Shown: piece after piece, positions 14,250-39,263 of the stretch
Numbering within the stretch: the first letter of the stretch is position 1
Layout: the number at the start of each line of letters is the position of its first letter
From: Brassica napus
Taxonomy: Eukaryota; Streptophyta; Magnoliopsida; Brassicales; Brassicaceae
DNA: 64,000 nt
Assembly (NCBI RefSeq): GCF_020379485.1
Contig: NC_063452.1
Span: 51,336,439-51,400,438 of the forward strand
Reading direction: 5' to 3'
The notes under the pieces: generated by a model
The model's input: only the letters and a program-made list of their open reading frames with translations
What the model was told of the DNA's origin: nothing
The model's database searches: none
Translations under genes and position numbers: made by a program

Positions 14250-14480
14250 ACGAAGGTTCGATCACAATAATAAATGACGTTTTTACCCATATTTCAAGTG
14301 GGATGAACTACACGTGCGTAGACTTTCCGCACGTGCGGTTTGAGGGTCTCCTCTCTATATTAAAAAAAAAATGTACGTAAAGCGAAGGGGAAGGCTAAAA
14401 ATCACTCGTCACCCACCCATACGAAGAAAAACAAAAAAAGGGGACGCACAGTGTTCTTGAATCATCGCTGCTGCCAAGTT
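14250..14480 (+). promoter_or_regulatory. RBR gene A promoter: two G-boxes and TATA
   Basis: Between the MULE target duplication and the RBR ATG lie two CACGTG G-boxes (14311-14316 and 14330-14335, 19 bp apart) and a TATA-like TCTCTATATTAAA near 14353-14364, about 120 bp before the ATG. The same arrangement, with the same G-box spacing, is kept upstream of gene B (36340-36402). G-boxes bind bZIP and bHLH factors; which factor acts here is unknown. Confidence 0.65.
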
Positions 14481-16929: not shown

Positions 16930-16976
<47 letters not shown>

Positions 16977-17022: not shown

Positions 17023-17273
17023 GGTGTAACTATCGAGGTGTAATTTGGAACCAAAGTTGTTATCTTTCGCTTTATGATCTTTCGGCTGTAAATTTATTGG
17101 TGGATCATATGTTTTTATGACTTGTTGCGTTTGAGTTTGGGAGATTCAGCAGTGAGAAATTTGTAGAAACCTTGGGTTTGAAGGTAAAGCTTTGTTTTGC
17201 ATACAAATGTCAATGACAAAATTGTCACATATAACTTTTAAATCACCGAGAAGCAAATGTTTGATTAAAACCC

Positions 17274-17805
17274 TCATTTATTTTTGAATCGTTGAGAATT
17301 AAGGAGAACGCGATACCTGTCACAGAGAGAGTGTACTGTCACAGAGAGAGTGTGGAAGCTTTTGACTCCAACTATTTTCGATGCATGTGGCAAGCTTTTG
17401 ACTCCAAAATTGGGTGAAATGTGGAAGCAGAGAATTAAGGAGAACGCGATACCTGTCACAGAGAGAGTGTACTGTCCTTACGTGAGGTGTTCTGCTTTGA
17501 TGTCCAAAACCAAGATATCTGAATCGGCCAAGAGCTTACAGTCTGCTTACCCTGCATCTGGAGTCAGGAGATGTGTGGAATGTCGTGGCCTCTTCTGTGT
17601 GGACTGTAAAGTCCCGTGGCATGGAAAGCTGTCATGCACCGAGTACAAGAAACTGCATCCTAATCCTCCAGCTGATGATGTGAAGCTAAAATCTCTGGCA
17701 AATAATAAAATGTGGCGCCAATGTGGCAAGTGCCAACACATGATCGAGCTTACTCAAGGACGCAATCACATAACTTGCAGGTATCTCTCTTTAACACTTT
17801 GATTA
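17274..17805 (+). pseudogene. RBR exon fragment (A'), catalytic Cys changed to Arg
   Basis: Partial tandem copy of RBR exon 2, from FDACGKLLTPKLGEMWKQR through the IBR and most of RING2, ending at the exon-2 splice donor (ACTTGCAG|GTATCT, about 17780). It has no RNase-H part, no RING1 and no exon 3. The front is scrambled: a short segment around AACGCGATACCTGTCACAGA is repeated at 17308 and 17443. In RING2 the catalytic position reads QGRNHITC (CGC at 17761-17763) instead of QGCNHITC. A non-functional relic of local duplication. Confidence 0.87.
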
Positions 17806-17960: not shown

Positions 17961-18233
17961 CACTACAAAAAAAGTTGCTATTCATAGCACATTGTTATAA
18001 CACGTTTCACTGAACTGCTGTCGTTGATGAGTGAATTTTTTTTCTAGTATAGGTTAGCATTATATAAATGCTATGATAGAGTTTTGCTTAGCGGGAAGCT
18101 AAAATTAGCTTTTCCACGAAACACTTAGTAAAAATTAGCTAATATTTTCTGTTTTCCCTCTCTCTAATCGGGGTTCCCTCTCTTCTCTCTCATTTTCCCC
18201 CTTTCTCGACAAAACTCTAAGAGAAATCAATCT

Positions 18234-18388
18234 GGATTCTCCATCTCCTTCTCTATCGTTCTCTCTCTATTTCCATCTCTGTCTCGATTCTCCATCTCCG
18301 GTTCTCCATCTCCGCCTCGATTCTCCATCTCTGATTCTCCATCTCCTCCTCGATTCTCCATCTCCCCCTCGATTCTCCATCACTCTCC
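18234..18388 (+). repeat. C/T-rich minisatellite in CACTA-1 leader
   Basis: Tandem copies of TCGATTCTCCATCTCC-like units of 15-18 bp on the plus strand, in the presumed 5' UTR of the TNPD transcript. Confidence 0.8.
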
Positions 18389-18702
18389 TTTATCGCCGCT
18401 TCTCCCAGCTCCGATTCAACTCCTGTTCTACATCTCTTAGGTATAGGAAGTCACAATTTCGATATCTCTGTCAGTGTTAAGCTGAAATCGAAGTTTTATT
18501 TTTTTTTGCTTTAATTTCTTGGTTGCTTTGATATGTTGGTTGCTTTAATTTCCTGTTTTATTCCAGTTATCTTTTTATTTGGTTGGTATCGTTTCATGCT
18601 CTGAATATTTTTGCTATATCATTACATCCTCTGACTCTTATGTGTTATGTTATAAGTTCGTTTTGTTACAAAAGGTTTCAACTTAGGTTCGAACACAGCA
18701 TT

Positions 18703-21700
18703 ATGGACAAAGCTTGGGTACATCTAAACAGGTAATGAGCTTAAGCGTGTATCTCATGTTTCATTTGGTGATTACTGACTTAACTTGTTTAATTTTGTTT
18801 TTCTTTTGATTGTTAATGGCAGAGTTGATCCTGGATATGAGAGAGGGGCTTCAAAGTTTGTCCGGGATGTGGCTTCAGCAATGGGAGGGGTTGATGTTAT
18901 TGTATGTCCGTGTATTGACTGCCGTAACATAGTTCGACATTCAGCAAGTGTGGTACTTGATCATCTTGTTACTAGGGGTATGGAGGAGGGTTATAAGATG
19001 CGGGCTGATTGGTATCTACATGGAGAGTTGAACGCAGAGGTTGCTGATGAAAGCAAAGGAAGTGAGTGGAACGATGAGATCTATGGGTTGTTCAGAGCTG
19101 CTGAGTGTTTTGATGAAGAGTTAGCTGGTATGGGGAATCTATCTGATATGGCAGAGGGAGAGGACAAGAAAGAAGATGAGTTCTTGGCAAAGCTAGCTGA
19201 CGCTGAAACACCATTGTATCCGAGCTGTTCAAGCCATAGCAAGTTATCTGCAATTGTTTCGTTGTTCAGATTGAAGACTCAGAATGGATGGTCTGACAAG
19301 AGCTTCAATGATTTGCTAGAGACCTTGCCAGACATGTTACCTGAAGAAAATGTCTTGCACACATCACTCTATGACGTGAAGAAGTTCTTGAAATCATTTG
19401 ACATGGGCTACGAGAAGATCCATGCTTGTGGCAACGACTGCTGCCTATTCAGAAAGAGGTTCAAGAAACTCGATAAGTGTCCTAAATGCAAGGCTTCAAG
19501 GTGGAAGACTAATGTCCACACGGGTGAGACGAAGAAAGGCGTCCCACAGAAAGTTCTCCGTTACTTCCCTGTAATACCAAGACTGAAGAGAATGTTCCGG
19601 TCTGAAGAAATGGCCAAGGATTTGAGGTGGCACTTTACCAACAAAAGCAGTGATGGAAAGCTGCGTCATCCTGTTGATTCTGTGACATGGGATCATATGA
19701 ATGCCAAATACCCTACGTTTGCAGATGAAGCAAGGAACCTGAGGCTGGGACTTTCAACAGATGGATTCAATCCATTCAACATGAAGAACTCGATGTACAG
19801 TTGCTGGCCTGTTCTGCTAGTTAACTACAACTTACCTCCAGACCTGTGCATGAAGAAGGAGAATATCATGCTTTCTTTGCTGATTCCTGGTCCACATCAG
19901 CCTGGTAATAGCATAGACGTGTATTTAGAACCCCTAATCGACGATCTTAACACTCTGTGGAGCATTGGAGAGGTAACATACGACGCTCTTACTCGATCAG
20001 CTTTTACACTAAAGGCGATGCTGCTTTGGACAATCAGCGATTTTCCAGCTTATGGGAATCTAGCAGGCTGCAAAGTAAAGGGAAAAATGGGATGTCCGTT
20101 ATGTGGAAAAAATACAGAGAGCATGTGGTTGAAGTTCAGCAGAAAGCATGTGTATATGGGTCATAGAAAGGGTCTGCCACCAACTCACAGTTTTAGAGGA
20201 AAGAAGAAATGGTTTGATGGAAAAGTAGAACAAGGGAGAAGGGGAAGAATACTTACTGGGCGTGATATTTCTCAAAATCTGAGAAATTTTCACAATGATT
20301 TTGGAAATTTCAAACGGTCTGGCAGTAAGAGAAAAATGATGCAGGGTTCAACTGATTTAGGGTCTGATATTGAGGGTATGTCGAGTGAATCAGATGAAGA
20401 GGAAGAAGTACTAGTAGATGAGGATGAGTTATCTAGATGGAAGAAGAGGTCAATATTCTTCAAGCTACCTTATTGGGAGGTAGATTATTATTTCATTTGC
20501 TTAATTTTTTTTTCCTCATCACTGTTATTTTCTTAACTTAAATATGATGTTTTATTTCTCATGTGTAGGAACTCCCGGTGAGGCACAACTTAGATGTAAT
20601 GCATGTGGAGAGAAATGTTGCTGCAAGCTTAGTTTCAACGTTGTTGCACTGTGGGAAATCTAAGGATGGTCTTGCCGCTCGTAAGGATCTGGAGGAGCTT
20701 GGTATTAGGCCGGATTTGCACCCTAGAGTGCAAGGAAAAAGAACCTATCTCCCTCCAGCACCGTGGTCTTTGTCCAAGCAAGAAAAGAAGATATTTTGCA
20801 GGCGTCTATTTGACTTCAAAGGGCCAGATGGATATTGTTCTAACATATCAAGAGGTGTCTCGTTGGATGACTGTAAAGTCTCTGGTCTGAAATCACATGA
20901 CTACCATGTTTTGATGCAACAACTTCTGCCGATTGCACTTAAAGGGTTGCTGCCAAAAGGACCGAGGCTTGCAATTTTTAGATTATGCTCTTTCTTCAAT
21001 CTGTTGTGTCAGAGAGTGATTGACATGGAGAAGCTTCTGGTTATGGAAGCTGAGATTGTTGAGACTCTGTGCTTGTTTGAAAGATACTTTCCTCCAAGTT
21101 TGTTTGATATCATGCTTCATTTGACTGTCCATCTAGGAAGAGAAGCTCGGCTTGGTGGACCAGTCCACTTTAGATGGATGTACCCGTTTGAAAGGTAGAT
21201 AAATATGATTTTTTTTCATTCTGTTACAAACATATCCAAAACTGACATTTATTGATTTGATTCAGGTACATGAAAGTCCTCAAAGACTTTGTTAGAAATC
21301 CTGCAAGACCAGAGGGCTGCATAGCTGAGTGCTACCTTGCTGAGGAATGTATCCGGTTTTGCAGTGAGTTCCTGAAGAAAACAACAAATGTTCAAGAGAA
21401 ACATGATAAAAACACAGAGTATGAGAACAATTCTATCTTAGAGGGTCGTCCAATAACCACTGCTACTTCAGTAACTCTCACTGAAACGGAAAAGAGGATT
21501 GCTCATCTTGCTATCATCCAAAACATGGCTCTAGTCGAACCTTATGTAGAGTAAGTATAAATTTATCTTTCATTACATAGTTTTTATTTACAATCAACAA
21601 CTTTTTCTAATTTATTTCTATTTTGATCTGCTACTAGTGAGCATCTACAATATTTACAAGACACATATGGAAGGTGTCGGCGAGATGCATCAACGTTATG

Positions 21701-22416
21701 GAGTATGCATACTAAGAATTTTGCTTCCTGGCTAAAAGAGAAGGTACTGAATTACATTATACAATTCTCCTCTTATAGACTGCCTACTTGTTATTGACTT
21801 GTTATTTATTTATCAGGTGCCTTTTGATTATGCAGAACATGACGACACACTTAAGTGGATAGCTTATGGTCCACGTTGTTCTGCGAGATCATATACAGGA
21901 TTCATTGTTAATGGGCAGAGGTTTCACACAGTGTCAGTTGATAGGAAAAGTCAGAATAGTGGGGTCTATTATGAGGCTACAGCAGTGTGTAGAGCTAGTG
22001 CAAAAGATACATCACAGGTGGTAGATTTAGTATCTTACTACGGCAGGGTGACATACATCATTTTGATCGACTACAATGTCTTCTATGTTCCTCTGTTCCG
22101 ATGTCAATGGGCAGTTAAGGGTAATGGAGTAAAGATCGAAGATGGTTTTACACTTGTGAACATGAATCAAAGTCAAGCCTCCTTTGCAAGTGACCCTTAC
22201 ATTCTAGCATCTCAAGCGAAGCAAGTGTTTTACTCCAGAGAAGATGAGTCATCAAACTGGTATATTGTCATGAAAGGTCCTTCTAGAAGATACAGTAAGG
22301 AAGATATTCAAGAGGGAAATGCAGATATTGGGCCATTACCGTCGAATGTTGACTTGGATGTTGACATTGATGATGCTGAGAATGTCAGAACTGATTGTGA
22401 AGGGATATATGTGTGA
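18703..22416 (+). CDS. CACTA-1 TNPD-like (tnp2) transposase
   Basis: DDE transposase expected to cut at the CACTA ends. Six exons with canonical borders, 18703-18731, 18823-20479, 20569-21194, 21266-21550, 21638-21743 and 21817-22416, sum to 3303 bases, giving an uninterrupted 1100 residues. Residues 1-75 form the transposase-associated domain (MDKAWVHLNR, CPCIDCRN). The tnp2 core follows, with a Zn-binding CPKCKASRWKTN, LGLSTDGFNPFNMKNSMYS, NYNLPPDLCMKKENIMLSLL and PLCGKNTESMW. Then come RHNLDVMHVERNV, DUF4218 (FERYFPPSLFDIMLHLTVHL, GPVHFRWMYPFERYMK) and a C-terminal DUF4216 (CQWAVKGNGVKIEDGFTLV, DPYILASQAKQVFYS). Each conserved block is present and no stop is found, so this transposase could be functional. 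Phases at every junction agree with the reading frame. Alternative starts upstream of 18703 were not favoured because exon 1 splices precisely into the N-R-V-D sequence. Confidence 0.92.
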
Positions 22417-22599
22417 CGAAGTTGCCTTATTGACATTGATGATATCATTGCTTGTTTTTGTTTTTGATTGTGGTACTTGCTTGGTCATTGTCTACTTGTT
22501 TGGTTGTTTCTTTTTTTGAGGTTGTAGTGTGATTGTTTCAGTGTTCTGTTGAGTATGAAGTTAACTATGTATTTCTTATTATGTTTCAGATGAATTAAG

Positions 22600-25456
22600 A
22601 TGGGACGTGCAAAGCAGACTAAATGTGGAAGGAGACAATCAAAGAAGTTAAAAAAGGCAGATGATGACGAAGTTGAGTTCGTTTGTACTATCCAAACACA
22701 TGAAGAAGAACATGAAGAGGAACGTGGGCAGCGACAGGAACAGGAAGAGGAACATGTGGAGGAACGAGAACCGGAAGAGGAACATGAGGAGGAGCAACAA
22801 CAGGAAGAGGAGCGTCAACCAGAGCAACATAATGGCGACGAGCCCGAAGGTGAGATAGAACATACTCAGGAGGCTGAAGGTGGAACCTCCCGTAAGAGAA
22901 AGCGTGGTCCAACAATGATGAGAGACCTAGCCAAAGATCCAAATACCAGAGTTCATGTCGATTTCACTTTTATGGGAGAAGCTTATGGTCCTGGTTCAGT
23001 CAAGCTATCTTCATATTTGGGTCCGTTGGTAAGGGAGCACGTGCCTGTTACAGTTGAAAATTGGAAAAAAATTACTGAAGAAGTGAAGACAGTGCTTTGG
23101 AAATCAGTCCAGGTGACAGTTTCTAAACAATAACAGCATGTATATTTCTGAACAAACATCAAGTTATTGATTATTGGTTGGCTAACTACGTGTGCAGGCA
23201 AGGTTTAAACTTGATGAGGACCACCAAAGGGTTGCAGTTCTTAAGCAGATGGGAGCCTTGTGGAGATCATCCAAGTCACGTCTTGTTACCCAAATCAATG
23301 AAGCTGAAAATAACCAACAAAGGATGAATCTCAGACCTAAGAATGTTCATCCAATTGAGTGGCACAAATTTGTGAAGCTAAAAACAAGCCAAGAATTCAA
23401 GGTATACATTCTTAGATGGAACTCCCATCGCTATTACTAACTAGATTAATAAGATCGTTATTACGAAATGATAGGTTCTGAGTGATAGCTACAAAGAGAG
23501 GAGAAGCAAACAGATTCCTCACACTTGTAGTAGAAAGGGAATGGTTAGACTAGCAGAAGAGATGGTAAGCATATTATCTCAGATTTTGGTTTCATTTTTT
23601 TATCTGTAGACAAGGCTGTTGACATATAATTTTGCAACAGAAAAATAGTTCTGAAGACAAATCTAAAGTGTCGAGACTTAAAGTCTGGGTGAGGTCACGT
23701 ACAAGAAAAGATGGAACTCCCATCAATACAAATGCTGCTGAGAAGATTGTAAGTTTATAACATAATCTGTTCCTCCTATTAATCCTGGTCGGTAGATAGA
23801 TATGCTTATAACTTTTTCTGTTAATTGTAATGTGGTATACAGCAAAAGGCAGCTGAGATTGTTAAGGGTGGTAGTCAGAGTGGAAAAAATCTGGATGAAG
23901 ATACGCTCATCCAGGTCTTAGGACCTGATAATCCTGGTCGTATGAGAGCAATGGGGAGGAATATTAGTAAGACGAAATTAGCTTGCTCAATGTCAACCAG
24001 AAGTCAATTTCTGAAATGCAACAAACACAAATTCATCTCATGCAAAAGGTTAATGAGCTACAGTCTGAACTTGCGAAAGTAAAAAACCAGGTTAGTTACA
24101 TCTCCAAGAATACATAAAGATAAGTGCTTATCACATAATAATAAGCTTTGTGTTGGGTTTATGTTACAGAGAGATGACAATGAAGTGGGGGAAAACTCGG
24201 CTGCAAGAGTAAGCAATTTATATGAGATCAATGGCATTTTTTTCTACTTTACACTACTCTTATACTTTAACAACTAACATTTAACAGAGTGTGAACAAGA
24301 TACCACAAAAGAAGTGTCTTCTCATTGACTGGGCTGATGAAGATGGAAACGTTGCTGAGGGTCGTATCATTTCTTCTGACCCTGAAGACATAGTGAATGA
24401 CAGTCGATTAGGTCCTAATGATGTTAAAGTCTTGGTTGATGAAGCTACTGAACCTGAAGCATTCCTCTGGAGACCTGCGACTAACATGTGCACAATTAAG
24501 GAAGCTGTTGGTCATATTATTGCATGGCCGAAGAAAAAATGCGTGGAACTAGGTCTGGGGCTTGAACATGAAGACATTGCACCACTGGTAAATGTTTTTC
24601 ATTCTTGCAGTTACATAGTTAATAAGGTCTTGATTTCGCCTATGATAACTTCTTTTTCTGAATGTGTTTGATAGGGCTCAAGAGCAAATTCTCTCAACAA
24701 ATGCAAACTTCTGGATTTGTGTGATGATAGTGTAGTTGTTGGTGAAGGGCGTTGGCAGACAAAAGAACCACAAGCATTGGTTAATGGACTTCCTCTAGGA
24801 CCTAAAGCAGTTAAAGTATTCTTGGATGTTGTACACGAGCATGAAACATATTTATGGAGGCCTACGATGGATCATTCCTACCTGGAGGACTGCTTACATT
24901 CTTTTATGTCATGGCCTGCTAGCAAAGTTGTCTTTGACAATCCACCAGAAGCAACAAGAGGACAATCTCCTACGGGTATGAAAGTTACATCGGTTGGTTA
25001 TAAGTCGCCTACTGATACAAGTGGTAGAAAAGGTGCAAAATCAGGAGCAACAATATCAATTCATACTGAGGAGTCTCCTGCAACTAATCAGGTAAATTTT
25101 TAACTTATATGTTCAATCATCTGCTCAGATTAATATCTGTGTTTTGAATTGTGTGCATGTCTATTGTAAAGTGTCAGCTTAAGCATGGATCTCAGACAAT
25201 GAAACAGAATCAGAAGTGCAAATTGATGGACATTGGTGAGAGGAAACAAGTTGTTGCTGAAGGTCGTATCCATTCAACAGACCCAACTCAACTGGTCCAC
25301 TTTGTGCGCTTGGGTCCGAAAGCAGCTAGAGTGTGGGTAGATGCAGTGCTCGTAGATGATGCAGAAGTTTGGAGGAAATCAGATGAAATAGAGAGTTTGA
25401 AAGATGCACACGGTTCATCAATTGCATGGCCAATTGATAAATTGGTCATATTTTAA
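22600..25456 (+). pseudogene. CACTA-1 TNPA-like gene with three DUF8039-type repeats, one frameshift
   Basis: Second CACTA gene; TNPA-like products bind the subterminal repeats and assist transposition. Nine phase-0 exons: 22600-23112, 23198-23401, 23475-23564, 23641-23748, 23843-24090, 24170-24208, 24288-24587, 24675-25091, 25172-25456. A basic N-terminus (KCGRRQSKKLKK) and Glu/Gln-rich stretch lead into the plant transposase (Ptta/En-Spm) region (RKRKRGPTMMRDLAKD). A coiled coil ends exon 5 (QQTQIHLMQKVNELQSELAKV). Then three divergent copies of one domain follow, each with a GEGR/AEGR.. turn, a LGP.....V.VD motif and a closing xxAWP/SWP. I read these as DUF8039. Exon 5 is 248 bases, one short of a codon multiple. 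The frame changes near 23973, between NISK and the coiled coil, so the product is broken there unless the base is a sequencing error. Confidence 0.8.
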
Positions 25457-26179
25457 GCTGCTGTAAGTATTCTGTTTTGTGTGTTTAAACCTGCATATGT
25501 AATTGCATAACTGATCAGAGTTTTCATTGTTGCAGCAGCTAAGGGAATGAAGAACTTAGGTCCAGATTTAGCTAGTGTTTAAGTTAGGCTAATGAACTTG
25601 ATGTATGATATTATTGCTTATGACTTTGGTTTGTGTTTTAGAACTGCATCAGTAACACTTATGTGTAATGACTTATGTATGTCAAACTTATTTTATGAAA
25701 GGGTTAGTTTGTTATGAAGTTTCTACTTTTTTTATTACAAATTTTCGAAAATGCAAATTCATAGCTCGTGAACAAATAACAATAGCTAAAAAAATAGTTA
25801 TGCTTGTAAAGCATAGCATTAAATATTTCATATAATGTAAACTATCATAATATATTTCTAAGCTATTAAAAACTTTAGTAAAGCACTTATCCACAACAAT
25901 TACCAAAATAAGCTATTGCTATTGTAGACGTCGCTACCATGGCACGCAATACATATCATAATCAATTTGTAACAAAAAATAATTGTGCCGTAGATTCATT
26001 AATAACATCAGCTAATTAATGCTATCGTAAACGAACATTTCGTAGCATCAAAGAAAAACGCTATTGTAAGGGGGCTACATATGATGGCTGCCGTATACAC
26101 AGCAGTTGTGAATTCGCTATCAAAACTCTAACATAGCATATAACCCGCGCTAACAATGAGCATTTTTCTTGTAGTGAAT

Positions 26180-27618
26180 GGATAAAACAATATTTTTTTC
26201 GTTAATTGCTACATATTGAACTAGGCATCTCTCTTATGTCATTCAACTTGATCTCAATTTAAGGTTTATCTGTCACATTTTTATTCATATTCAAATCAAC
26301 TTGTATTTTATTTTTATTATTATACACAATTAGGACGGTTGTGAAGTGATTTATACTTATTTGTCATGATTTCCATGATTTTAGGTAATTTTGCTTATTT
26401 GTCATGTTTTAATTAGGTTTAAGCCGAATCATTAATTTATTAATAGTTTTTAGTTAAGTCTATAATCTATTAATTTAAATAATATAACTATAAAATATAT
26501 AATTATATATATAATTATTTTGATTTTGCTTATTTGTCCTGTTTTCCATGATTTTAGTCAATTTTGTTGATTTGTCATGTTTTTATTAGGTTTTATCTTA
26601 GTCATTGGTTTATTAATAATTTTTAGCTGAATCACTAATTTATTAATTTAAAAAATATCTGTAATGAATTTTATATTTAATTAAAAACGAATTTTGATTT
26701 AATAATATTTAAATCTATATGTTATATTAAATTTTTTATTTTTTATTTGTCATATTTTATAAGGTTTTAAGCTTTTATATAGGTCATTGATTTATTATTA
26801 GTTTTTAACTTAGTATTTATTAATTTTCAAAAAAATCGCAATGAATTTTATATTTAATAAAACACACATTTTATTTTAATAATAGTAAATTTATATGTTA
26901 TGTTAAATAATTAATTATAAACTAATATAATAAAATTGTGAAAATATATTTAAAAATTAAGAGAATTCTTATATATATTGTGTTGCTATCTGAAAACAAT
27001 ATTTTTATTATAAAGTTAAAAAAACTAAGATATAAAACAGTTTATAATTAAATATTAGTCAAACAAAAATATTTATATAAAGATATTTTCTAAACTATTT
27101 CTAATATATGAGTGTTTTAAAACTTTTAACACAATAATAAGTACATAGTTTGATGAACGTTTTTTGACATATATAAATAATTTGATGTTTGATTTAAATA
27201 TTTAAAATCATAAATAATAACTTAACTATTTAAAATCATAAATAATAACTTAACTTGTGACTGAGTTTAAAACAAATTTTCTTGCTTTTATTTTAAACCA
27301 CTTTAAGTTTAATCCGTGAAACACTATAGCTTCAGTTGGTGATCACTAGAAAAATGAAAAAAATGAACAAAATAAAAAATAAAATTTCATTTGAGGAATT
27401 GAAAAAATAAAAAAAAAATATGAATTTTTGTTCAATTTGTTTCTTATCAAAATTGCTTGGGAAATTTTTTTCTTATAAATTCATTCCTCCATGGGAAATT
27501 TGGAAGAAAAAATGGGATCTACCTTTCAATAATTTGACTAAAATTTTAACATAACTGGTATAAATTTTTAGGAACAAAGAATTCACCATAATATTTTTTC
27601 TTCAACATGTTCACCAAT
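26180..27618. other. AT-rich DNA between CACTA-1 and CACTA-2
   Basis: 26180-26355 is duplicated host DNA (CTTATGTCATTCAACTTGAT...ATTAGGACGGTTGT) matching 45087-45172 and 49340-49365. From about 26356 it is very AT-rich, with recurring TATTTGTCATGTTTT and TTTATTAATAGTTTTTAG motifs, and no genes. This stretch is absent from the paralogous block. Together with 35403-35497 it probably forms one inserted, Helitron-like element into which CACTA-2 jumped. Confidence 0.6.
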
Positions 27619-27639
27619 CACTACAAGAAAACGTAGCAG

Positions 27640-27960
27640 TAACAACGGCGGTTTACGACGAAATTATTTCCTCGTAACTTTACATGGGCTTTACAACGCA
27701 ATTACGACGAGACATTATTTCGTCGTAAACTCCATGGTAATTTACGACGAAAGGATTTCGTCGTAAAGTCAATGTAAGTTTACGACGAAAGTACGTGGAA
27801 TGCGAAATAGTTGTAAACGTTACATCGACATTACAACGAATCATGTTACCGTTATATAAAGGTGAAAACGTGTATTCAATGTGCTTTAACTTACCTAAAT
27901 TCGTTGTAAAGTCGTTGTAAATGTTCCATGTAAAATCCATGTAAAACTTTTCTTGTAAAA
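27640..27960 (+). repeat. CACTA-2 5' subterminal ACGACG repeats
   Basis: At least eight copies of TTTACGACGAAA or its complement TTTCGTCGTAAA within about 150 bp of the left end. They are candidate binding sites for the element's TNPA-like protein. The same unit recurs at 28340-28420, 28500-28530, 32710-32950 and 35040-35390. Confidence 0.85.
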
Positions 27961-28035
27961 TCATTGTTATATTTCTCTATATATATATGTCATTTCCCAC
28001 AACTCTCTTCTTCACAACACACAACTCTCTTCCTC
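27687..28035 (+). promoter_or_regulatory. CACTA-2 promoter-like leader, copy 1 (upstream of hairpin)
   Basis: Direct repeat of 28331-28660. Shared blocks include ACAACGCAATTACGACGA, ATCATGTTACCGTTATAT, GTGAAAACGTGTATTCAATG and the terminal CATTTCCCACAACTCTCTTC. A TATA box (TCTCTATATATATATG, 27973-27990) lies about 85 bp before the first base of the EDM2 inverted repeat, so this copy is placed to transcribe the hairpin. Transcription itself is inferred. Confidence 0.7.
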
Positions 28036-28072
28036 TCGAACCTGATGGCGTTTAGACTCTGTTCCTCATTCA

Positions 28073-28333
28073 GCCACCAATTACTATTTCGAAGATGACG
28101 ATAAGGAACATGAGTCATTCGTCTGTCTGCCAATTCAGTGGAGCGACAAGGAGAAGTGGACGGAAGTGCAGTTGGTTTATACTTGAAAGGAACCTCCGAC
28201 CATCGTCAAAGGTTCCTCTCAAGTACAAACCAGCTGCACTTCCGTCCACTTTCTCCTTGTCATTCCACTGAATTGGCAGACAGACGAACGACACAGGTTC
28301 CTTATCGTCGTCTTAGAAATAGTAACTGGTGGC
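28073..28333 (+). ncRNA. Inverted repeat of EDM2 coding sequence: candidate hairpin small-RNA precursor
   Basis: Arms 28073-28194 and 28211-28333 are inverted copies with a 16-base loop. By hand I count 11 mismatches and one 1-base gap over about 123 bp, with an unbroken 25-bp paired run. Read in the plus sense, the left arm and its upstream bases give VPHSATNYYFEDDDKE..., then PIQWSDKE, then (after a one-base loss) VDGSAVGLYLKGTSD. The complement of the right arm gives DDDKEPVSFVCLPIQW, NDKEKVDGSAAGLYLRGT in one frame but with a stop (TAA) near its start. These match the N-terminus of Arabidopsis EDM2 as I remember it. Because each arm is broken as protein, the structure rather than a peptide is what has been kept. 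The right arm is antisense to EDM2 mRNA. Small-RNA production is inferred. Confidence 0.85.
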
Positions 28334-28660
28334 TTAACAACGCAATTACGACGAAACCAACGAAACCAAATTTCGTCGTAAACGCCATGTAATATTACGA
28401 CGCAAGTACGTCGAAAAGTAAACTTTACATCGACATTACAATGAATCATGTTACCGTTATATTTAGGTGAAAACGTGTATTCAATGTGCTTTAACTTACC
28501 TAATTTCGTCGTAAATTCGTTGTAAATAATATGTTAAAACCATGTAAAATCCATGTAAAATATTCCTTGTAAAATCGTTGTTATTTTTCAACTACCCAAC
28601 TCGAAAATTTCTCTATATATATGTCATTTCCCACAACTCTCTTCCTCACAACACACAAAC
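28331..28660 (+). promoter_or_regulatory. CACTA-2 promoter-like leader, copy 2 (drives TNPD)
   Basis: Second copy of the leader described at 27687. Its TATA box TCTCTATATATATG (28610-28623) is about 100 bp before the TNPD ATG at 28724. It begins immediately where the right arm of the hairpin ends. Confidence 0.7.
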
Positions 28661-28723
28661 GGGAGAAAAAAAAGCAGAAAAAAGTCAGAAAAAAAAAGAT
28701 TTGAAAAAAAAATCTAAGAAAAA

Positions 28724-31700
28724 ATGGCCGGTGGCGGTAGTATTTACGAGTTACGGAGTTGGATGTATTTGCACAAAGATTCCGACGGGAGGGTGACAAA
28801 CGCATTTCTGAGCGGGCTAGAGACATTCATGCACCAGGCGGGCTGTACACCGATCACACAGGAAAGCGGTAAGATGTTCTGCCCCTTTCGGAAATGCAAG
28901 AATTCAAAATTTGCACGTAGTGAAACTGTATGGAAGCATTTAGTAAACAGAGGATTTACACCACAGTACTACATTTGGTATCAACATGGAGAGGGTTATG
29001 GGGGAAATGAAGCTAGTAGTAGTAATAATAATTTTGAGGATGGTCATCATAGTGAAGAACCGAATCATTTGCATAATGAATATAATTATCATCAAGATCA
29101 TGAGCAGATGGTAGATCATGATAGGGTTCAAGATATGATTAGTGATGCATTTTTAGAAACAACTACAACAATAGCTGATGGAACTGGAAATGTAGAAGAA
29201 CCTAATTTGGATGCAAAAAGGTTTTATGAAATGCTAGATGCTGCAAATCAACCAATCTACACTGGTTGTAGAGAAGGTCTCTCTAAATTGTCTCTAGCAG
29301 CTAGGATGATGAATATTAAAACGGATCATAATTTACCTGAGAATTGCATGGATGCATGGGCGGAGTTGTTTAAAGAGTATTTGCCAGAAGACAACGTGTC
29401 TGCTGAATCTTATTATGAGATTCAGAAATTGGTTTATAGTCTTGGGTTGCCTTCGGAGATGATTGATGTTTGCATCGACAACTGCATGATCTACTGGAAA
29501 GAAGATGACAAGTTAGAAGAGTGTCGATTCTGCAAAAAACCACGATTCAAACCGCAAGGCCGTGGGAGGAATAGGGTACCGTACCAAAGGATGTGGTACC
29601 TACCAATTACAGACAGATTGAAAAGATTATATCAATCTGAGAGGACTGCTGCATCGATGAGGTGGCATGCGGAACATGTCCAGAGAGATGGTGAGGTTGC
29701 ACATCCATCAGACGCAAGAGCGTGGAAACATTTCAACAAGGTACACGCAGATTTTGCTACAAATATTCGGAATGTCTATCTTGGGTTATGCACCGATGGA
29801 TTTTCTCCATTTGGAATGTCTGGTAGACAATATTCTTTGTGGCCAGTCATTCTTACGCCGTACAATTTACCGCCGGATATGTGCATGGAACAAGAATTTC
29901 TATTTTTGACCATATTAATCCCTGGGCCGAAGCATCCAAAACGGTCTCTTGATGTTTTTCTTCAACCGTTGATAGAAGAGCTAAAGCAATTGTGGTCAGA
30001 AGGGGTGTGGACGTACGATTGTTCCTTGAAAAACAATTTTACGATGCGAGCAGTTCTGCTGTGGACGATAAGTGATTTCCCTGCTTATGGGATGTTGTCT
30101 GGCTGGACAACACATGGAAGATTATCTTGTCCATATTGTCTTGGATCGACGGATGCTTTTCAACTGAAGAATGGTAGGAAGAGTTGTTGGTTTGACTGTC
30201 ATCGTCGCTTTCTTCCACTTGCCCATCCGTACAGAAGAAATAAGACATTGTTTCGGCACAAAAAAATTGTCAGAGACGGTCCTCCTCCATATCTCACCGG
30301 CCAGCAGATCGAAGCAGACATTGATTATTACGGAGCTCAGGAAACAGTTAAAGTTGGAGGAAATTGGCATGTTCCTGGAAATATGCCTGATGGATATGGT
30401 GTGTCTCACAATTGGCATAAGAAGAGTATATTTTGGGAGCTACCCTATTGGAAGGATCTTCTCTTACGCCACAATCTGGATGTCATGCATATTGAGAAGA
30501 ACTTTTTTGAGAACATCATGAATACATTACTTAACGTCCCTGGGAAGACAAAAGATAACAAAAAGTCAAGGATGGACTTACCTGATATTTGCTCAAGAAG
30601 TGAGTTACATATCAAGAGCAATGGAAACGTTCCTGTTCCCATCTTCCGGTTGTCATCAGAAGCCAAAACAACCTTGTTTGACTGGGTTGCATCAGAAGTT
30701 AAGTTTCCTGATGGTTATGTTTCAAATCTGTCAAAATGTGTTGAACGAGGTCAAAAGTTCTCCGGAATGAAGAGTCATGATTGTCATGTGTTTATGCAAC
30801 GACTTCTTCCATTTGCTTTTGCCGAGCTCCTTCCAGCAAATGTCCATGAAGCACTTGCAGGTAATTATAAAACGTTAATATATATACATATGTTATGAAA
30901 TGTTATTAATTTGATTACTTTTGCAATATACAGCCATCGGCGCTTTTTTCAGAGATCTCAGCACACGTACGTTCAAGGAAGAAGTCATCGAACAACTTCA
31001 TCATAACATTCCGATCATATTGTGCAACCTGGAGAAGATATTTCCTCCTTCATTTTTTGACGTCATGGAGCATCTAGTTGTCCACCTACCATATGAAGCA
31101 TTGCTTCGTGGACCTGTTCACAACGGATGGATGTATCCGTATGAGCGACAGATGAAACATTTGAAGGGGAAAGCAAGAAATCTTGCAAAGGTGGAAGGTT
31201 CAATAGTTGCGGGAAGTTTGACAGCCGAAACATCTAACTTCACATCATACTACTTTGCTCCAACTGTTCGTACGAGGAAAAGAGTTCCTAGAAGATATGA
31301 TGATGGTGGAGTACCGACATCATATCCAATTGATGGTGTTCCTGACATTTTCTGCGAAATTGCAAGGTTTGGTGGTAAAACGAAAGAAGTATGGTGGTCA
31401 TGTGAAGAGGATAAACATAGTGCCCACACTTATATTCTGCTCAACTGCGAGGATGCAATGACCCGTTACTTTGAAAGGTAAATATTTTTGTGAATGTTAA
31501 TTATATGAATTGCAGTTAATTATGTATGACTTGATTATTTGTTTAATTTGCAGCATGTTTGTATCTCAAGTTGAAGAAGCAATACCAGGAATATCTGCAA
31601 CTGATGTGGACACACGTAAAGATAAGCACTTTGTCAAGTGGTTAAAATCACAGGTACGTAATATATCTCATACATTGATTAATTAAGTAAGTGTTTTGAT

Positions 31701-32417
31701 ACTTCAATATTAATTAAGAATAACTGCTTTTTGCAGGTTGATTACGACGATCCTTATTATCCCGTATGGTTTCACGAATTGGTTCAAGGTCCAGTTGCAA
31801 AGGTCACCACATCACCTATGTATTTCACACGAGGATTTACCTTTCACACATACGAGTATGGGAGACATCGGGCAACGAGTAACTACGGAATATGTGTGAA
31901 AGGTGAAACGGACTTTTACGGGATCTTGCAGGAGATTATTGAAGTGGAATTTCCGGGGTTATTGAAGCTAAAATGCGTCCTCTTCAAATGTGAATGGTTC
32001 GATCCTGTTGTGAACCGAGGGATTCGGTATAACAAATTTGGTGTTGTGGATGTCAATTTTGGGAGAAGATACAACAAATTTGAGCCTTTCATTTTAGCTT
32101 CACAAGCCGAGCAAGTAAGCTTCCTTCCTTATCCTCGGCTTCGAACTTCCGGGATAAACTGGTTAGCTGCTATCAAAATTACACCTCGTGGACGCATTGT
32201 CGCTGGAGAAGAACCGCCCTTGCAAGAAGAAGACGCTATCAATGAAGTTGAGGTACCAGAACAACCAACTGATGAAATCCTTTTGATCGACCCGCAAAAC
32301 TTTCAATATGAAGATATTCCCGAAGATGCGACAGATGAAGCACGTGAAGACGAGTTCGAGAGAAGCGACGATGATGATTGTAATGATAGTGATGAGAACG
32401 AAAACGATTTAGAGTGA
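28724..32417 (+). CDS. CACTA-2 TNPD-like (tnp2) transposase
   Basis: DDE transposase of the second CACTA. Exons 28724-30860, 30934-31477, 31554-31653 and 31737-32417 sum to 3462 bases, an uninterrupted 1153 residues. The N-terminal transposase-associated domain includes MFCPFRKCKNSKFA and the downstream YYIWYQHGEGYG. The tnp2 core has ECRFCKKPRFKPQGRGR, LGLCTDGFSPFGMSGRQYS, PYNLPPDMCMEQEF and LSCPYCLGSTDAF. RHNLDVMHIEKNFFENI and DUF4218 (LEKIFPPSFFDVMEHLVVHL, GPVHNGWMYPYERQMKHLKG) follow, and a C-terminal DUF4216 (FKCEWFDPV, FEPFILASQAEQVSFL) leads into an acidic tail. It shares organisation with the CACTA-1 protein but is clearly a different subfamily: fewer introns, different N-terminus. 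All landmarks are intact, so activity is plausible. Confidence 0.92.
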
Positions 32418-32699
32418 TGTAATATTGATGAGAACGAAAACGATTTAGAGTGATGTAATATATGTCTCTGATGTTGTATTTCTCTATTGTAACGTATGTT
32501 TAAAGAAATATTGTTTTTTTACCATCCTAATGTATGTGTAACAAATGTTGTTTTATATAATATGTATTTGTGTTAATTTTAAAAAAATTATTTGGAGTTT
32601 TAGGGTTTTAGAGTTTAAGTTGGAGAAAGAGCACAAAGTAGTAGAGAAGAAGAGATATGATGTTAGATGATATGTGACTTTGGGGTTTAGGGATTTCAT

Positions 32700-32960
32700 T
32701 CTCGGTGTTTAGGGTTAAGCGTTGTAAAATCGTCGTAAACCGATTTTTCGACGTAATTTCGTCGTAAATGGAAAAACGCGGGCCTGGTAACTTCGTCGTA
32801 AACGTGGGCCTTGTAAATTCGTCGTAAACCAATGTTTCGACGTAATTTCGTCGTAAATCGAAAAACACGGGCCTGGTAACTTCGTCGTAAATTAAAAAAC
32901 ACGGGCCTGGTAACTTCGTCGTAATGTTACGAGGAAGTTACGAGGAAACCGTTTTTATAT
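32700..32960 (+). repeat. Internal ACGACG array between CACTA-2 genes
   Basis: Repeated AATTTCGTCGTAAA units plus three copies of a longer AACACGGGCCTGGTAACTTC-like block. It precedes a TATA-like TTTTTATATATATGG (about 32952) and the TNPA-like gene, so it may serve as that gene's promoter region. Confidence 0.8.
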
Positions 32961-33207
32961 ATATGGGAGAAGTCTTTCAGACGAGCACTGCTCGTATCTT
33001 CCTCCCTAACTCCTCTCCCCCTCTAAGGTAACTTTCTCTCTCTATCTTTTTTTTTTTTTATAGTTTAGGTTGTTAGTTTAGGTGATTAGTTTAGGGAATT
33101 AGTTTAGGTGATTAGTTAACGGAATTAGTTTAGATGATTAGTTTAGAAAATTATTTTAAACAATTCGTTTAGGATATATATTAATTTAATTTTTTTAAAT
33201 TTTCTAG

Positions 33208-34847
33208 ATGGCTCCTAGACCGAGACCAGCAGCTCCTGCACCTACGTATGCGGATTTGTTTGGCGATGGATCTTCCTCTAGCGGTCCATCGTCTTCTTCC
33301 GGGACAGTTCCAGACTCTCACACATCTCGGAGAGTTCCTTCGACCCCTCCTCCTCTTCCATCTCAGATGCCTCCCCCACGAGCTCCACCTGTCGCCCCGG
33401 ATCAGCCTGCCCCACCGGCTGCAGTTCATCCCGATTTGCGGGTGCCAGCTCATGCACCATTCGCAAGATACACCGTCGAGGATTTGCTTGCCCAGCCCGG
33501 ACGAGAGGGTTTACACGTTCTGGACCCCGATAGACCCCCGGGTACTTATTGGTAAGTACATAAAATTATTAATTTTAAATTTAAAATCTTTGATCAATTT
33601 TTTTAACAAATTTGTTATATTTGCAGGTTTGGGGCTAACAACCGTGTTAGCCGGAGCGTTTCAGAGACGATGAAGGGATATTATGACGGCCCTTATCCCA
33701 ACTGGACCATGACTCCCGATCACGTCAAGACGACGTGGTTTAAATGTTTTGCGGTAATTATATTTACATATTATTAATATTTATATTGTTAATTAAATAA
33801 TTATTATTATTTTTTTTCTAATCTTTTAAAATGTTTGTTTTTTCAGCAAAGGTGGAACTGGTCCGTAGGAATCACCGAGAGGGTGAAGAGCGAATTTATT
33901 GCAAAGGCGAAAACTCGTCTTTGCAACACCGTCTCCGATTGGAAGGACAAGTGGGAGATTTACGGCTATGAGGGGAAGCCGAGCGGGGTCACAAAGGAAG
34001 CATGGGATGGCCTCATCACCTATTGGAACGAACCCAGCTCCATCCGCAAAGCCAACTCCTGCTCCGCTTCCCGAAGAACGAGGGATAAAGATGGCCATTT
34101 GCCCATGGTTCATAGATCCGGCCAAAAACCCCATGCCGGAATTCGTCTCGAAGCTGTAAGTTTTATTTAAATTTATAATTTTCATTATTTTAAACTTGTA
34201 TTTATTAATTATATTTAATTTATTTATTATTGTTGTTTATTAGTTGGAGAAGACGGGAGTTTTGCCATCTCTCTCGGACTTATTCAAGATGACTCACGCC
34301 TCACCAGATGGGGTTTTTGTGGATCCTGCATCCGAAAACTCTTCAACGCTGTGGCGTCTCGGGTTGAAGAGCAAGAGACGCAACTTACCCAACAGTCTGC
34401 AGATGGATTACCCGTCAAGTTGTCAACCGTAGAGGTCGACCGGATCTTCGAGGAGGTAAAATTTAATAATTTTAATTTTTTTTCTTTATTTTATTATTAA
34501 CTCTAAATACGGTTTTATATATATACATATAGGTGGCTCCTAGAAAGAAGGGAAGGACGGTTGGAATAGGTTCCGTTAACGAAGTTGCAAGGGCGACTTC
34601 GTCATACTATTCGAGACGGGACCAGGACAACGACCGGATGCAGGCTCGCATGGATACCCAGCAGCAGCGTTTGGACTCTCTCGAGGGTTTGCTGGATGTG
34701 ATGGCGGTGGGAAATCCAACTTTGCAGAGAGCTTTGGCGGAGAGACGAGCAGCTCTCGGGATGAGCCAGCCGGATCCCGAAGCAGGAACGTCTACAGACC
34801 CGAACCCCTCAGCCAACTACTTCGATGACCATGATGTTGGCCTTTAG
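33208..34847 (+). pseudogene. CACTA-2 TNPA-like (Ptta/En-Spm) gene, one frameshift
   Basis: Accessory DNA-binding protein of the element. Exons 33208-33551, 33627-33753, 33847-34155, 34244-34455 and 34533-34847, with GT..AG borders. Pro/Ser-rich N-terminus (GPSSSSGTVPDSHTSRR). Conserved Ptta block: MKGYYDGPYPNWTMTPDHVK, QRWNWSVGITERVKSEF, AWDGLITYWNEPSSIRKANS and HRSGQKPHAGIRLEA. The C-terminus has a predicted coiled coil (MQARMDTQQQRLDSLEGLL). In exon 4 the frame is lost near 34336-34340, after DPASE: downstream codons continue in the next frame (VEEQETQLTQQSADGLPVKL). One base appears missing. Otherwise the gene is complete, resembling the situation in CACTA-1. Confidence 0.85.
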
Positions 34848-35029
34848 TTTCCTTTTTTAATTTCTTTTGTTTTGTATAAAAAATTTAAATTCTATTTAAT
34901 TAATGAATTTATAGTTTTTTTAAAAAATTATTTGGTTTCATATTTAATTTTATTTCAAATATTTTAAATTTTAAAATTATTGTTTTATAAAATTTATATA
35001 ATTATTATAATTAATTAATATTTTAAATA

Positions 35030-35399
35030 TGGAGATGTAAATTCGTTGTAAAATTCCACGTTAAGTCCTCGTAACGTTTACGAGGAATTTACATGAAGTC
35101 GTTGTAAAGTCCTCGTAAAATTTACATCGACTTTACGTGGAAGCCTTAAGTGGCTTTTACAACGAACTATTACGAGGTATTTACATCGTCATTTACGAGG
35201 GCATTACGACGAATAGTTTCCTTCCGCTTTACGAGGAATTGACTTCCTCGTAAACATAACTAGGACTTTACGACGAAACCTCCGTTACGACGAGCGTTTA
35301 ACAACGAAACGCGTATCGATGTTAATTCGTCGTAAAGCCCCTATTACGACGAATTTACAACGAATACCGCCCTCGTAAAAAATATGTTTTCTTGTAGTG
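35030..35399 (+). repeat. CACTA-2 3' subterminal ACGACG / ACGAGG repeats
   Basis: Dense TTTACGAGGA, TTCGTCGTAAA and TTACAACGAA units in both orientations up to the right terminus. Confidence 0.85.
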
Positions 35400-35402
35400 A
35401 AT

Positions 35403-36522: not shown

Positions 36523-39263
36523 ATGGAGTTCTTGGGAGGTCGCGATTCCGATTCCGATTCCGAATACGCTTTCCGATTGCAGATGGAGGAGGCACTCGCT
36601 GCTTCCCTCGCTTCCCGATCTCGTGCTCCGCCGTCGCCTCCCGTTGTCGCTAGGAGTGGATTCGCTATCGTGGTGGAGGATGAGGAGATCGGTTCCACGC
36701 CGAGAGGTGAATCTGAGAACGCGCGTCAAAGAAACACCGGCGGCGGAGAAGGTAACTCGAGAGGAAAAGGGAAAACCCACCACGAGACAGTCTCTGGTAC
36801 ACGGAGAGACGATCGAAACCCTAACAGTAAAGTCCAGAATGCTTCTGCGTACGTTGGTACTGTTACTGTTCTTCCCGCGCAATCTGTCGGTGAGGGAAGC
36901 TCGAAGAAGGTTGTTGGTGATGCCGTAAGGAGGGGGAGTTTCAGGGGAGACTTGATGTACAGGCTTTACTCCAAGGGTTTGGTGAGCGAAGAGACTGGGA
37001 ATGGGAATGGGAATGGGAAAGGGAAGGTGGCTGATGTGGTGGCTGGGTTTGGGGTTGCGATTTGCGACCAGAGGGATGCTCTGTTGTTCGAGTCCAAGGG
37101 ACAGCTGGCTGGCCGTGGCGCGAATCGTCAGGGAGCGGAGATTCAGGCGTTGACTCTAGGGTTGACCGAGGCGTCGAAGCTGGGGATCAAACACGTCGCT
37201 ATCTTCTGCGATTCTTTTCCCATTTTCCAATTCGTTAAGTTTCCAACTCTTTCCCTTTTCTTCTTTGTTACGCTTCACTCTTACTTGCTTTTGTTGAATG
37301 GTGTGTTCGTTTTACTTTTGTTTACTCGATGCATCATGTAGAAATAGTGATGAGCTGATGAGTTGGAGTTCCCCTGTTCCTGTTACTATTTGATGTAGCT
37401 AATTTGTGTGTTTGAGGATGTGCCAATGTGATTGAAGAGTTGCATTGACTACTCTATCATTCTATATTCGTGAACCATTTTGTTAGCTATTGTTGTTTCT
37501 CTTTGCTTGGCGATAAAAATAAGTTGTTTGTTGCGCTACCTCCACTAGCTATATCAGAGAGTAGAGACTGTTTATTTGCTTGTGTTTTGTGCGATGGTTT
37601 AGAGTTCCAATGTGTAGTGCTTTCTTTACCTAGATTTTCATTTTCTGTTTATTTTATTTGAATGCAGGTCAGGGGAAGCTGGAAGCCTAAGCAAAAGAAG
37701 ATTGCCATGCTAATGGATGACTTGCAACGGATCAGGCAACAATTCTCGTTTACTCAAGCTGTTCTGGTGGCTGGAAACCAAGTCAAATATGCTTATAAAC
37801 TCGCTAGGGAATCAATTGTTTCGCAAGCAACCCCTCATGAAAACCCCCGCCAAGCTAAATTAGCTGCTATGAAAGAAGAGTGTCTTATCTGTTTCAACGA
37901 TATCGATCCTGAGCGCATGTTTTCTATCGGTAAATGCACTCACCGCTTTTGCTTTCAGTGTGTGAAGCAACATGTAGAGGTGAAGCTGCTTCACGGAATG
38001 ATTCCGAATTGTCCTCATGATAAATGCAATTCTGAGATGGTTATCGATGCGTGTGGCAAGCTTTTGACTCCGAAATTGGGTGAAATGTGGAAGCAAAGGA
38101 TCAAGGAGAACGCAATACCTGTCACTGAGAGAGTTTACTGTCCTTACCTGAGGTGTTCGGCTTTGATGTCCAAAACCAAGATATCTGAATCCGCCAAGAG
38201 CTTACAGTCTGCTTACCCTGCATCTGGAGTCAGGAGATGTGTCGAATGTCGTGGCCTTTTCTGTGTGGACTGTAAAGTCCCGTGGCATGGGAAGCTGTCA
38301 TGCGCCGAGTACAAGAAACTGCATCCTAATCCTCCCTCAGATGATGTGAAGCTAAAGTCTCTGGCGAATAATAAAATGTGGCGCCAATGTGGCAAGTGCC
38401 AGCACATGATTGAACTTAGTCAAGGATGCAATCACATAACTTGCAGGTATCTTCTTAACACTTTGATCAACCTAAGAAACCTAAGCAATTATTCAATCTT
38501 TCCTTGTTTAACCATATTGGGGGCGTATTTCCCTTTTGGTATTTGCTTTAGATGTGGGCATGAGTTCTGCTACAATTGTGGAGGAGGATGGAACAAAAAA
38601 ACAGGGACTTGTGTTAAGCAATGCCCGACCTGGGACGAAGCGTACATCATGCGGCAAGATCAAGATCCAGGGCGTGCGTATGTGGCGCCTAACAACTACT
38701 TTGATGATCATGATGAGGAGGATGAAGCTGATGAAGATATTGAGTACGGCTATGGTGACTTCCCCTTTAATTTGGGGCAACATATGAATATTGTTAATCC
38801 TGAAGAGCCCTTTGATCCCTTCTTCGACCTGCCAGATGGTAATGTGCCAAATCTCTATATAAAGCCCCTTGAATCTCATAAGCTGTTCCTACTGAAATCA
38901 CTCTCTGATGCTCCTCTAGGTGTGATCTTTCACCCATCTATGCTGTCTCCCAGGAGCCGTCAGCAATTCTACGACTCGGATGATGATTCTGATGAGGAAA
39001 GGTTGCGACCACCTCATTTGAGACAGAGTAATGCCCCGTCTGGTGATGAGACAACAAGAGTTAATGGTCATTTGAGACAGAGTAATGCCCCGTCTGGTAA
39101 TGAGACGACAAGAGTTAATGCTCCTCCTGAGGAAGAAGAAGAAGTGGACGACTGCCCATACTTCGGAACGTATGGAAAGTACGCTATAGTATATGACTCG
39201 GACGGCTATGAAATCGAGGATTACACGAACCCTTTCCATCCAGATTACTATCCTCAGTTTTGA
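36523..39263 (+). CDS. RBR (RING1-IBR-RING2) E3 ubiquitin ligase gene B
   Basis: Intact paralogue of gene A with exons 36523-37233, 37668-38446 and 38552-39263, giving 733 residues. The RNase-H-like domain (VAICDQRDALLFESKGQLA, EIQALTLGLTEASKLGIKH), RING1, IBR and RING2 are nearly identical to A, and the RING2 catalytic Cys in QGCNHITC is present. The C-terminus (~190 residues) is a normal mixed-composition tail (FPFNLGQHMNIVNPEEPFDP, LKSLSDAPLGVIFHPSMLSP) with two tandem 18-20-residue units (HLRQSNAPSGDETTRVNG and a near copy), ending GYEIEDYTNPFHPDYYPQF. Intron 2 (105 bases) is a multiple of three with no stop, so its retention would insert 35 residues into RING2. It is more likely than A to reflect the ancestral protein. 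Confidence 0.9.

Follow-up and report, generated by a model that had tools for sequence, protein, structure and literature searches.

An EDM2-derived hairpin behind a duplicated promoter-like region in a subfamily of Brassica CACTA transposons

Organization of the CACTA element

The window (i.e. the whole stretch of 64,000 nucleotides analysed here) contains a CACTA transposon in which a hairpin-forming inverted repeat lies between the left terminus and the transposase gene, flanked by two copies of a promoter-like region. Apart from the hairpin itself, the features of the element are:

27619..35399, + strand: CACTA (En/Spm) element, 7781 bp, with exact 13-bp terminal inverted repeats CACTACAAGAAAA / TTTTCTTGTAGTG
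27616..27618 (left) and 35400-35402 (right): target-site duplication AAT
27652..27800: subterminal repeats, units TTTACGACGAAA / TTTCGTCGTAAA
27755..28024, + strand: promoter-like copy 1, 5' of the hairpin, tandem copy of 28370-28658; putative promoter
28370..28658, + strand: promoter-like copy 2, 5' of the transposase, present in hairpin-less relatives; putative promoter
28724..32417, + strand: TNP2-type transposase gene, open pieces 28724-30898, 30921-31481 and 31731-32417
33208..34847, + strand: second element gene, tnpA-like, with a Transposase_24 fragment

By its termini (the left one starting at 27619, the right one at 35387-35399), its 3-bp target-site duplication and its TNP2-type transposase, this is a CACTA element. 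The transposase gene encodes Transposase_21 (E 4.4e-77), Transpos_assoc, DUF4218 and DUF4216 domains. Among 28 loci scanned, both exact termini fell inside the fetched stretch in six, and all six had matching target-site duplications. The tnpA-like gene of the window copy has an apparent one-base frame break near 34330, so that one of the two element proteins may be missing here.

Structure of the hairpin

The inverted repeat and the short EDM2-derived stretch preceding it are composed as follows:

28045..28068, + strand: start codon of EDM2 with the codons next to it, truncated by a deletion; not part of the inverted repeat
28069..28203, + strand: left arm, EDM2 exon 1 in sense, with a one-base loss near 28153
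28202..28337, - strand: right arm, from EDM2 exon 1, which a + strand transcript would contain in antisense; TAA stop in the EDM2 frame

The initial annotation had described two inverted arms of about 123 bp around a 16-base loop. The arms are real but somewhat longer, and the supposed loop holds a weak 3-bp stem with a 4-base tip. Arm to arm, 120 of 135 aligned positions are identical, plus one gap where a base is missing from the left arm; the 15 mismatched columns comprise 12 true mismatches and 3 G-U pairs. The reported perfect run of 25 bp was recovered as a 25-mer found in both arms, and neither arm is able to code, given the one-base loss in the left arm and the stop at 28315-28313 (minus strand, EDM2 frame) in the right one. 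The predicted RNA fold reaches -204 kcal/mol against a mean of -67 (sd 4.35) for shuffled sequences (z -31.5), and none of 200 dinucleotide shuffles folded as well.

When all inverted repeats of the window are ordered by BLAST score, the hairpin (336 bits) comes third; both rows above it stem from a single repeat array (51.5-52.3 kb). Arrays of degenerate palindromes, with units resembling TTTAGGGTTTAGTG, occupy 51546-52323 and 53096-53429. A search of the hairpin against Rfam gave 16 matches at E up to 1, none at the gathering score, and hence no match to a described miRNA family; the miRNA-like matches, which were below the cut-off and reflected hairpin shape alone, were discarded.

Origin of the arms in EDM2

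A composite peptide built from both arms, and padded to allow full-length matches, was used as protein query. It returned 13 candidates, 12 of which were retained as proteins, all of EDM2 type (best E 1.2e-22) and none pointing to another gene family, in agreement with the origin first proposed. Two of the 12 are named ENHANCED DOWNY MILDEW 2 (Capsella, Camelina); the other ten, from sources including Brassica carinata, Sinapis alba, Eruca, Eutrema, Thlaspi, Noccaea, Arabidopsis suecica and Cochlearia, were assigned to the EDM2 type by their shared length (1288-1329 residues) and Pfam domains. Translated and compared with the EDM2 of Brassica carinata, the right arm has 40/45 identical residues, the left arm 29/34 and, across the frame break, a further 13/16. 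The 43-residue arm peptide matched no solved structure and no Pfam family; it was therefore identified through full-length homologues and the genome's own EDM2 genes.

The latter were located in the window's own genome (997 Mb) with a probe of 36 bases taken from a long form of the hairpin (locus L025, see below), allowing up to three mismatches. Of the five places matched, two are EDM2 genes, two are the arms of L025 and one is a broken copy of EDM2. The genes and their matches in the right arm are:

C38:5537359: EDM2-A
C262:9587526: EDM2-B
28212..28260 of the window, - strand: perfect 49-nt antisense match to EDM2-A, 29 exact 21-mers
28220-28261 of the window, - strand: antisense match to EDM2-B, 22 exact 21-mers

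The right arm is thus antisense to EDM2 mRNA, as had been stated from its translation, and is identical to EDM2-A at 121 of 133 DNA positions; the left arm has two exact 21-mers in common with EDM2-A and 23 with EDM2-B. EDM2 is thus an identifiable host donor elsewhere in the genome, as expected of gene capture by a CACTA element. In both EDM2 genes codons 1-139 are open and no intron interrupts the captured stretch, so that capture from DNA and capture from RNA would look alike.

The broken EDM2 copy (L053, C38:5531090 region) contains stops and lies about 6 kb from the start of the intact-looking EDM2-A, which may point to a tendency of EDM2 to duplicate locally. As a possible source of the arms L053 was rejected, the arms being nearer to EDM2-A or EDM2-B in nearly all comparisons. 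The left arm of the A2 class of hairpins is level against EDM2-A, EDM2-B and L053 (84.7-85.8 %).

Distribution and forms of the hairpin

Contigs are designated below by number (C1 to C234, ten contigs of 19.6-45.0 Mb; C243, 51 Mb; C262, 58 Mb), and A-like and B-like (the latter including C243 and C262) are labels of contig groups whose presumed assignment to the A and B subgenomes is based on contig sizes and karyotypes. Hairpin sequence occurs in both groups, and so in both halves of the genome. In the hairpin search, 40 of 140 candidate places were scored and all 40, the window's own included, were full-length at about 100 %, 12 of them reaching the top score. The 25-mer of both arms had 260 matches within one mismatch, against none for its reversed control. 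Its exact form occurred on C1-C234 at 57 places among the matches listed (25 with both arms, 32 with one), which, together with the 40 on other contigs, brings the hairpin sequence to at least 97 places. It is accordingly neither unique to one copy nor common to every CACTA copy, as shown below, and is best described as a subfamily trait. An exact scan of bacterial, archaeal and viral contigs with the 25-mer gave no match.

Of the 57 places on C1-C234, 38 were fetched and all had both arms (L016 only in part). Altogether 48 hairpin loci were fetched (L001-L048, L002 being the window's own copy), and both arms were present in 47; in L048 the right arm has been lost by deletion.

This distribution bears on a possible benefit to the host, in which control of EDM2 dosage or altered expression of immune receptors would keep carriers in the population. 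EDM2 is reported to tune immune receptor genes in Arabidopsis (PMC7529245), which lends the idea some plausibility, but near-identical copies on many contigs resemble a transposon burst and not a fixed regulatory locus, and we regard it as very improbable.

The unpadded arm peptide found three short proteins. P0134, a 78-residue gene model of Brassica carinata, reads antisense through both arms and agrees with the window at 63 of 64 residues; it represents the B-type form of the hairpin in that species. P0135 corresponds to the left arm with the EDM2 start region in undeleted form, as also seen in L025, and P0133 to an EDM2-like start without hairpin. By these protein data, the hairpin also exists outside this genome.

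Two loci carry rare long forms. L025 (C116:6902000-6911000) is an internally deleted element with a TTT target duplication; its arms span the EDM2 start codon to about codon 93, with 267 of 274 aligned columns identical and a fold of -528 kcal/mol, and in its right arm the EDM2 frame is open. L030 (C38:17099700-17100500) is an intermediate long form and has both promoter-like copies. All 45 short-form rows of the alignment (the window being included twice) have in common nine derived changes at columns 60-183, four in the left arm and five in the right. This pattern suggests that the short hairpin derives from the long one by a single event and spread only after divergence of its arms. At the 13 of 280 positions that distinguish EDM2-A from EDM2-B, L025 has the A state at seven, the B state at five and neither at one; from this mixture, the capture probably took place near the split of the two EDM2 gene lineages.

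Duplication of the promoter-like region

The two promoter-like copies of the window agree at 240 of 260 aligned positions, with 39 further columns of gaps. One TATA motif (27978) precedes the arm by 91 bases and another (28614) the transposase start by 110 bases; a third one is found at 27853. In our view the two stretches are duplicates of a single promoter, one of which would serve the hairpin and the other the transposase. This layout of hairpin and promoter-like copy had gone unnoticed in the initial annotation. Both copies are present in 25 of the 27 long hairpin loci fetched (L001-L028 without L016), the exceptions being L009, without copy 1, and L025, without copy 2; the 12 hairpin-less sister elements fetched all have a single copy.

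Comparison of carriers and non-carriers

In order to sample the family independently of the hairpin, a probe from the promoter unit, blind to the hairpin, was used; it gave 622 matches within two mismatches and none for its control. The first 100 places listed, all exact, were compared by eye with the exact 25-mer places, the 35 of them on C262 being left out of this classification. On C1-C211 a hairpin was found within about 1 kb at 19 of the 26 places listed. On C243 it was present in seven of the 38 elements listed (39 places, two of them in one element), the other 31 having no 25-mer. Twelve hairpin-less loci were fetched among the forward-strand hits (9 of 31 on C243 and 3 of 7 A-like), and each had the terminus, one promoter-like copy and the transposase, with no EDM2 match; ten forward-strand promoter hits on C262, picked outside the 40-place carrier list, likewise had no EDM2 match. 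The hairpin-less loci on C243, C262 and A-like contigs led us to reject the view that all family members carry the hairpin, and the sisters with a single promoter-like copy and no EDM2 match indicate that carriers form a derived subfamily.

Carriers are also younger in our samples. On C243, over promoter-like copy 2 and the transposase start, carriers differ by 0.29 % on average and non-carriers by 3.4 % (five of the seven carriers usable, two being internally deleted, and nine non-carriers). When C243 and C262 were taken together, with three short loci left out and the five C262 carriers picked from the 40-place list, mean pairwise divergence was 0.0039 for carriers (n=10) against 0.0362 for non-carriers (n=18); nearest-neighbour distances did not overlap (Mann-Whitney p=1.6e-5), and the carriers formed one clade (support 0.974). 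On A-like contigs, terminal branches measured 0-0.02 for 15 carriers and 0.023-0.05 for three non-carriers. The transposase start is free of stops in 26/28 carriers as against 4/12 non-carriers (p=0.0002), and on C243 and C262 in 10/10 and 10/18, respectively (p=0.025); the difference on C243 alone (5/5 and 4/9) was not significant (p=0.086). Another cause acting in one lucky lineage could also account for the youth and intactness of the carriers.

The youth of the carriers is relevant to an action of the hairpin on its own element, in which 24-nt RNAs or a structured leader would work in cis, on methylation of the 5' region or on translation of the transposase, and leave EDM2 unaffected. Its position in the 5' region, upstream of the transposase, suits such a role, and long hairpins are a classic trigger of silencing, as for Mu killer. 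Carriers should then be dying out, whereas those sampled form the youngest clade; moreover the arms match EDM2, and the rest of the element has no exact 21-mer in common with the EDM2 loci, so that the guides would not be addressed to the transposase gene. We consider this action in cis improbable.

The trees conflict between the two parts of the element. In the tree of the 5' end, B-type carriers group with A-type carriers (support 0.96); in that of the transposase start they fall within B-type non-carriers (support 0.92), and likewise in that of promoter-like copy 2 (support 0.82). The B-type carrier thus reads as a mosaic, in which promoter-like copy 1 and the hairpin would come from one lineage and the body from another, followed by a burst. 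Exchange in the opposite direction, i.e. conversion of the element body, would give identical trees. Given that P0134 has the B-type form in B. carinata, the join would predate B. juncea, should that be the host.

Evolution of the arms

Arm identity decreases from 96 % in L025 (counting bases near the tip) to 93 % in L030, 90 % in the B class and L026, 87 % in A1 and 84 % in A2, and the earlier statement that pairing is preserved did not survive this comparison. We counted 21 derived changes in the left arm and 23 in the right, and slower evolution of the right arm as a whole was rejected accordingly. Within the 49-nt antisense stretch, the right arm has 4 changes and the left arm 11, a marginal difference (p=0.055 after correction for the choice of the stretch). 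Selection for pairing also found no support, 12 of the 15 mismatch columns being true mismatches and a single change being common to both arms of the same copies. Of the 47 rows compared (L016 and L048 left out), 43 keep 22 or more exact 21-mers antisense to EDM2-A; without the double entry of the window the figures are 42 of 46.

Several of these figures are those expected of a passenger, i.e. a captured EDM2 fragment turned into a palindrome by aberrant repair, riding on the burst of an element with intact transposase and leaving EDM2 unaffected. Arm identity is lower in the more changed classes, both arms change equally, C>T and G>A account for 26 of the 44 distinct changes, as for methylated silent DNA, and the open transposase start of carriers could by itself explain their success. 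A mere passenger fits less well with a cassette that has a promoter-like copy of its own in front, that occurs at 97 or more places, that was apparently joined to a second element body before the burst, and that keeps at least 29 perfect antisense 21-mers to EDM2-A in 42 of 47 rows; on balance we hold it to be the less likely reading. The number of places, the apparent transfer before the burst and the 21-mers kept in most rows may be signs of selection, while the pattern of change in the arms fits equally the slow drift of a passenger and a drifting hairpin that needs just some good 21-mers.

Proposed action on EDM2

Our preferred reading, at a probability slightly above one half (about 0.55), is that a CACTA subfamily carries a fold-back of EDM2 exon 1 behind a duplicated promoter-like region, and that the predicted hairpin RNA would yield small RNAs that lower EDM2. 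It draws directly on the EDM2 origin of the arms, their layout, their spread through both halves of the genome, the recent origin of the B-type carriers sampled and the discordance of 5'-end and body trees. Promoter-like copy 1 would drive the hairpin transcript, Dicer-like enzymes would cut it, and 21-24-nt RNAs from the right arm, complementary to EDM2 over up to 49 nt without mismatch, would guide its cleavage or silencing.

In Arabidopsis, EDM2 is described as a partner of IBM2 and AIPP1 and as suppressing cryptic poly(A) sites in heterochromatic elements, downstream of DNA methylation (PMC10241880). It is also reported to promote full-length IBM1 transcripts, to affect more than 2,000 transposons, and to raise silencing marks at Mu1 while lowering them at COPIA4 (PMC7529245). 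A decrease in EDM2 would then be expected (i) to increase the use of cryptic poly(A) sites within heterochromatic elements, (ii) to remove H3K9me2 from some DNA transposons and (iii) to lower IBM1, any of which could raise expression of the element. A gain for the element in the form of weaker silencing is uncertain all the same: in these papers EDM2 functions after DNA methylation, and the direction of its effect depends on the transposon.

A more detailed version, which we advance tentatively and at somewhat less than even odds, takes the hairpin and its promoter-like copy as an exchangeable RNAi cassette. It would have been built once, near the split of the two Brassica subgenome lineages, and moved by recombination onto a second body lineage; it would knock down EDM2, and its carriers would be the CACTA clade that is active now.

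Comparison with known systems

To our knowledge, few transposons are known to fight host silencing. If the reading of the hairpin as a source of small RNAs against EDM2 is true, it describes a way for a genomic parasite to weaken host control, and a second CACTA counter-attack by small RNAs beside rice miR820, with another target and another type of RNA. In rice, miR820 is reported to reside in CACTA elements and to have a stem similar to an intron of OsDRM2, the methyltransferase gene that it targets; lower OsDRM2 raises transposon expression, and at least 18 miR820 copies, many identical in sequence, are dispersed in the BB genome (Nosaka 2012, PMC3459959). The parallel drawn in the initial annotation is sound as far as the type of element, the origin of the hairpin in the host gene that it targets (putatively, for EDM2), the nature of the target as a silencing factor and the many dispersed copies are concerned, the Brassica hairpin having 29 and 22 exact antisense 21-mers to EDM2-A and EDM2-B, respectively. 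However, miR820 is a microRNA with an intron-like stem, demonstrated target regulation and co-evolution, whereas the Brassica hairpin is long, derived from an exon and placed behind its own promoter-like copy, with predicted small RNAs. It resembles miR820 on paper and is a candidate for the miR820 type.

Other systems offer partial likenesses. VANC of VANDAL elements is described as an anti-silencing protein acting on related elements (PMC13317346). It is, as predicted here, a transposon-borne counter to host silencing; unlike VANC, the EDM2 hairpin encodes no protein. In Brassica self-incompatibility, Smi is reportedly an inverted-repeat small RNA gene that silences a related gene in trans, as the EDM2 hairpin is predicted to do, although Smi is said to be host-encoded, directed at a mating gene and not borne by a transposon. 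Under the inverted duplication model of plant MIRNA birth, a hairpin arises from an inverted copy of its target and its arms drift over time. The EDM2 hairpin is likewise an inverted copy of its putative target with drifting arms, but it matches no Rfam family at cut-off, and its small RNAs are predicted. Captured gene fragments are sources of siRNAs in maize and in B. napus Helitrons. Here too a transposon carries a host gene fragment; the difference is that it forms an inverted repeat of a silencing-related gene, in an element with an open transposase start. Capture of host gene fragments is also described for Pack-CACTA elements in a 2026 review of plant gene capture, the main text of which contains neither 'hairpin' nor 'miR820' (PMC13317346). 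In the titles and abstract openings searched, a range that excluded subscription papers and preprints, we found no description of a CACTA-borne EDM2 hairpin.

The family comes with built-in controls: sister elements on the same chromosomes either have or lack the cassette, hairpins occur in long and short forms, and EDM2-A and EDM2-B offer two targets. These controls make it directly testable whether a transposon profits from lowering a host silencing factor.

Other elements and genes of the window

A second CACTA element (17961-26176), with AAT on both sides, encodes a TNP2 transposase about 32 % identical to that of the hairpin-bearing element, and no long inverted repeat appears for it in the whole-window list of inverted repeats. 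The pair of CACTA elements is flanked by two related gene copies (14451-17802 and 36523-39263), which we take to encode an RBR/ARIADNE-like E3 ligase; that on the left is a fragment and includes a long acidic repeat. Open frames at 41163-43388 (minus strand) and 57210-59613 presumably correspond to a hAT transposase with a BED-type finger and to a copia-type polyprotein, respectively. Finally, protein P0076, labelled as partial and from Escherichia coli, is 69 % identical to the transposase of the hairpin-bearing element and probably reflects plant contamination of a bacterial assembly.
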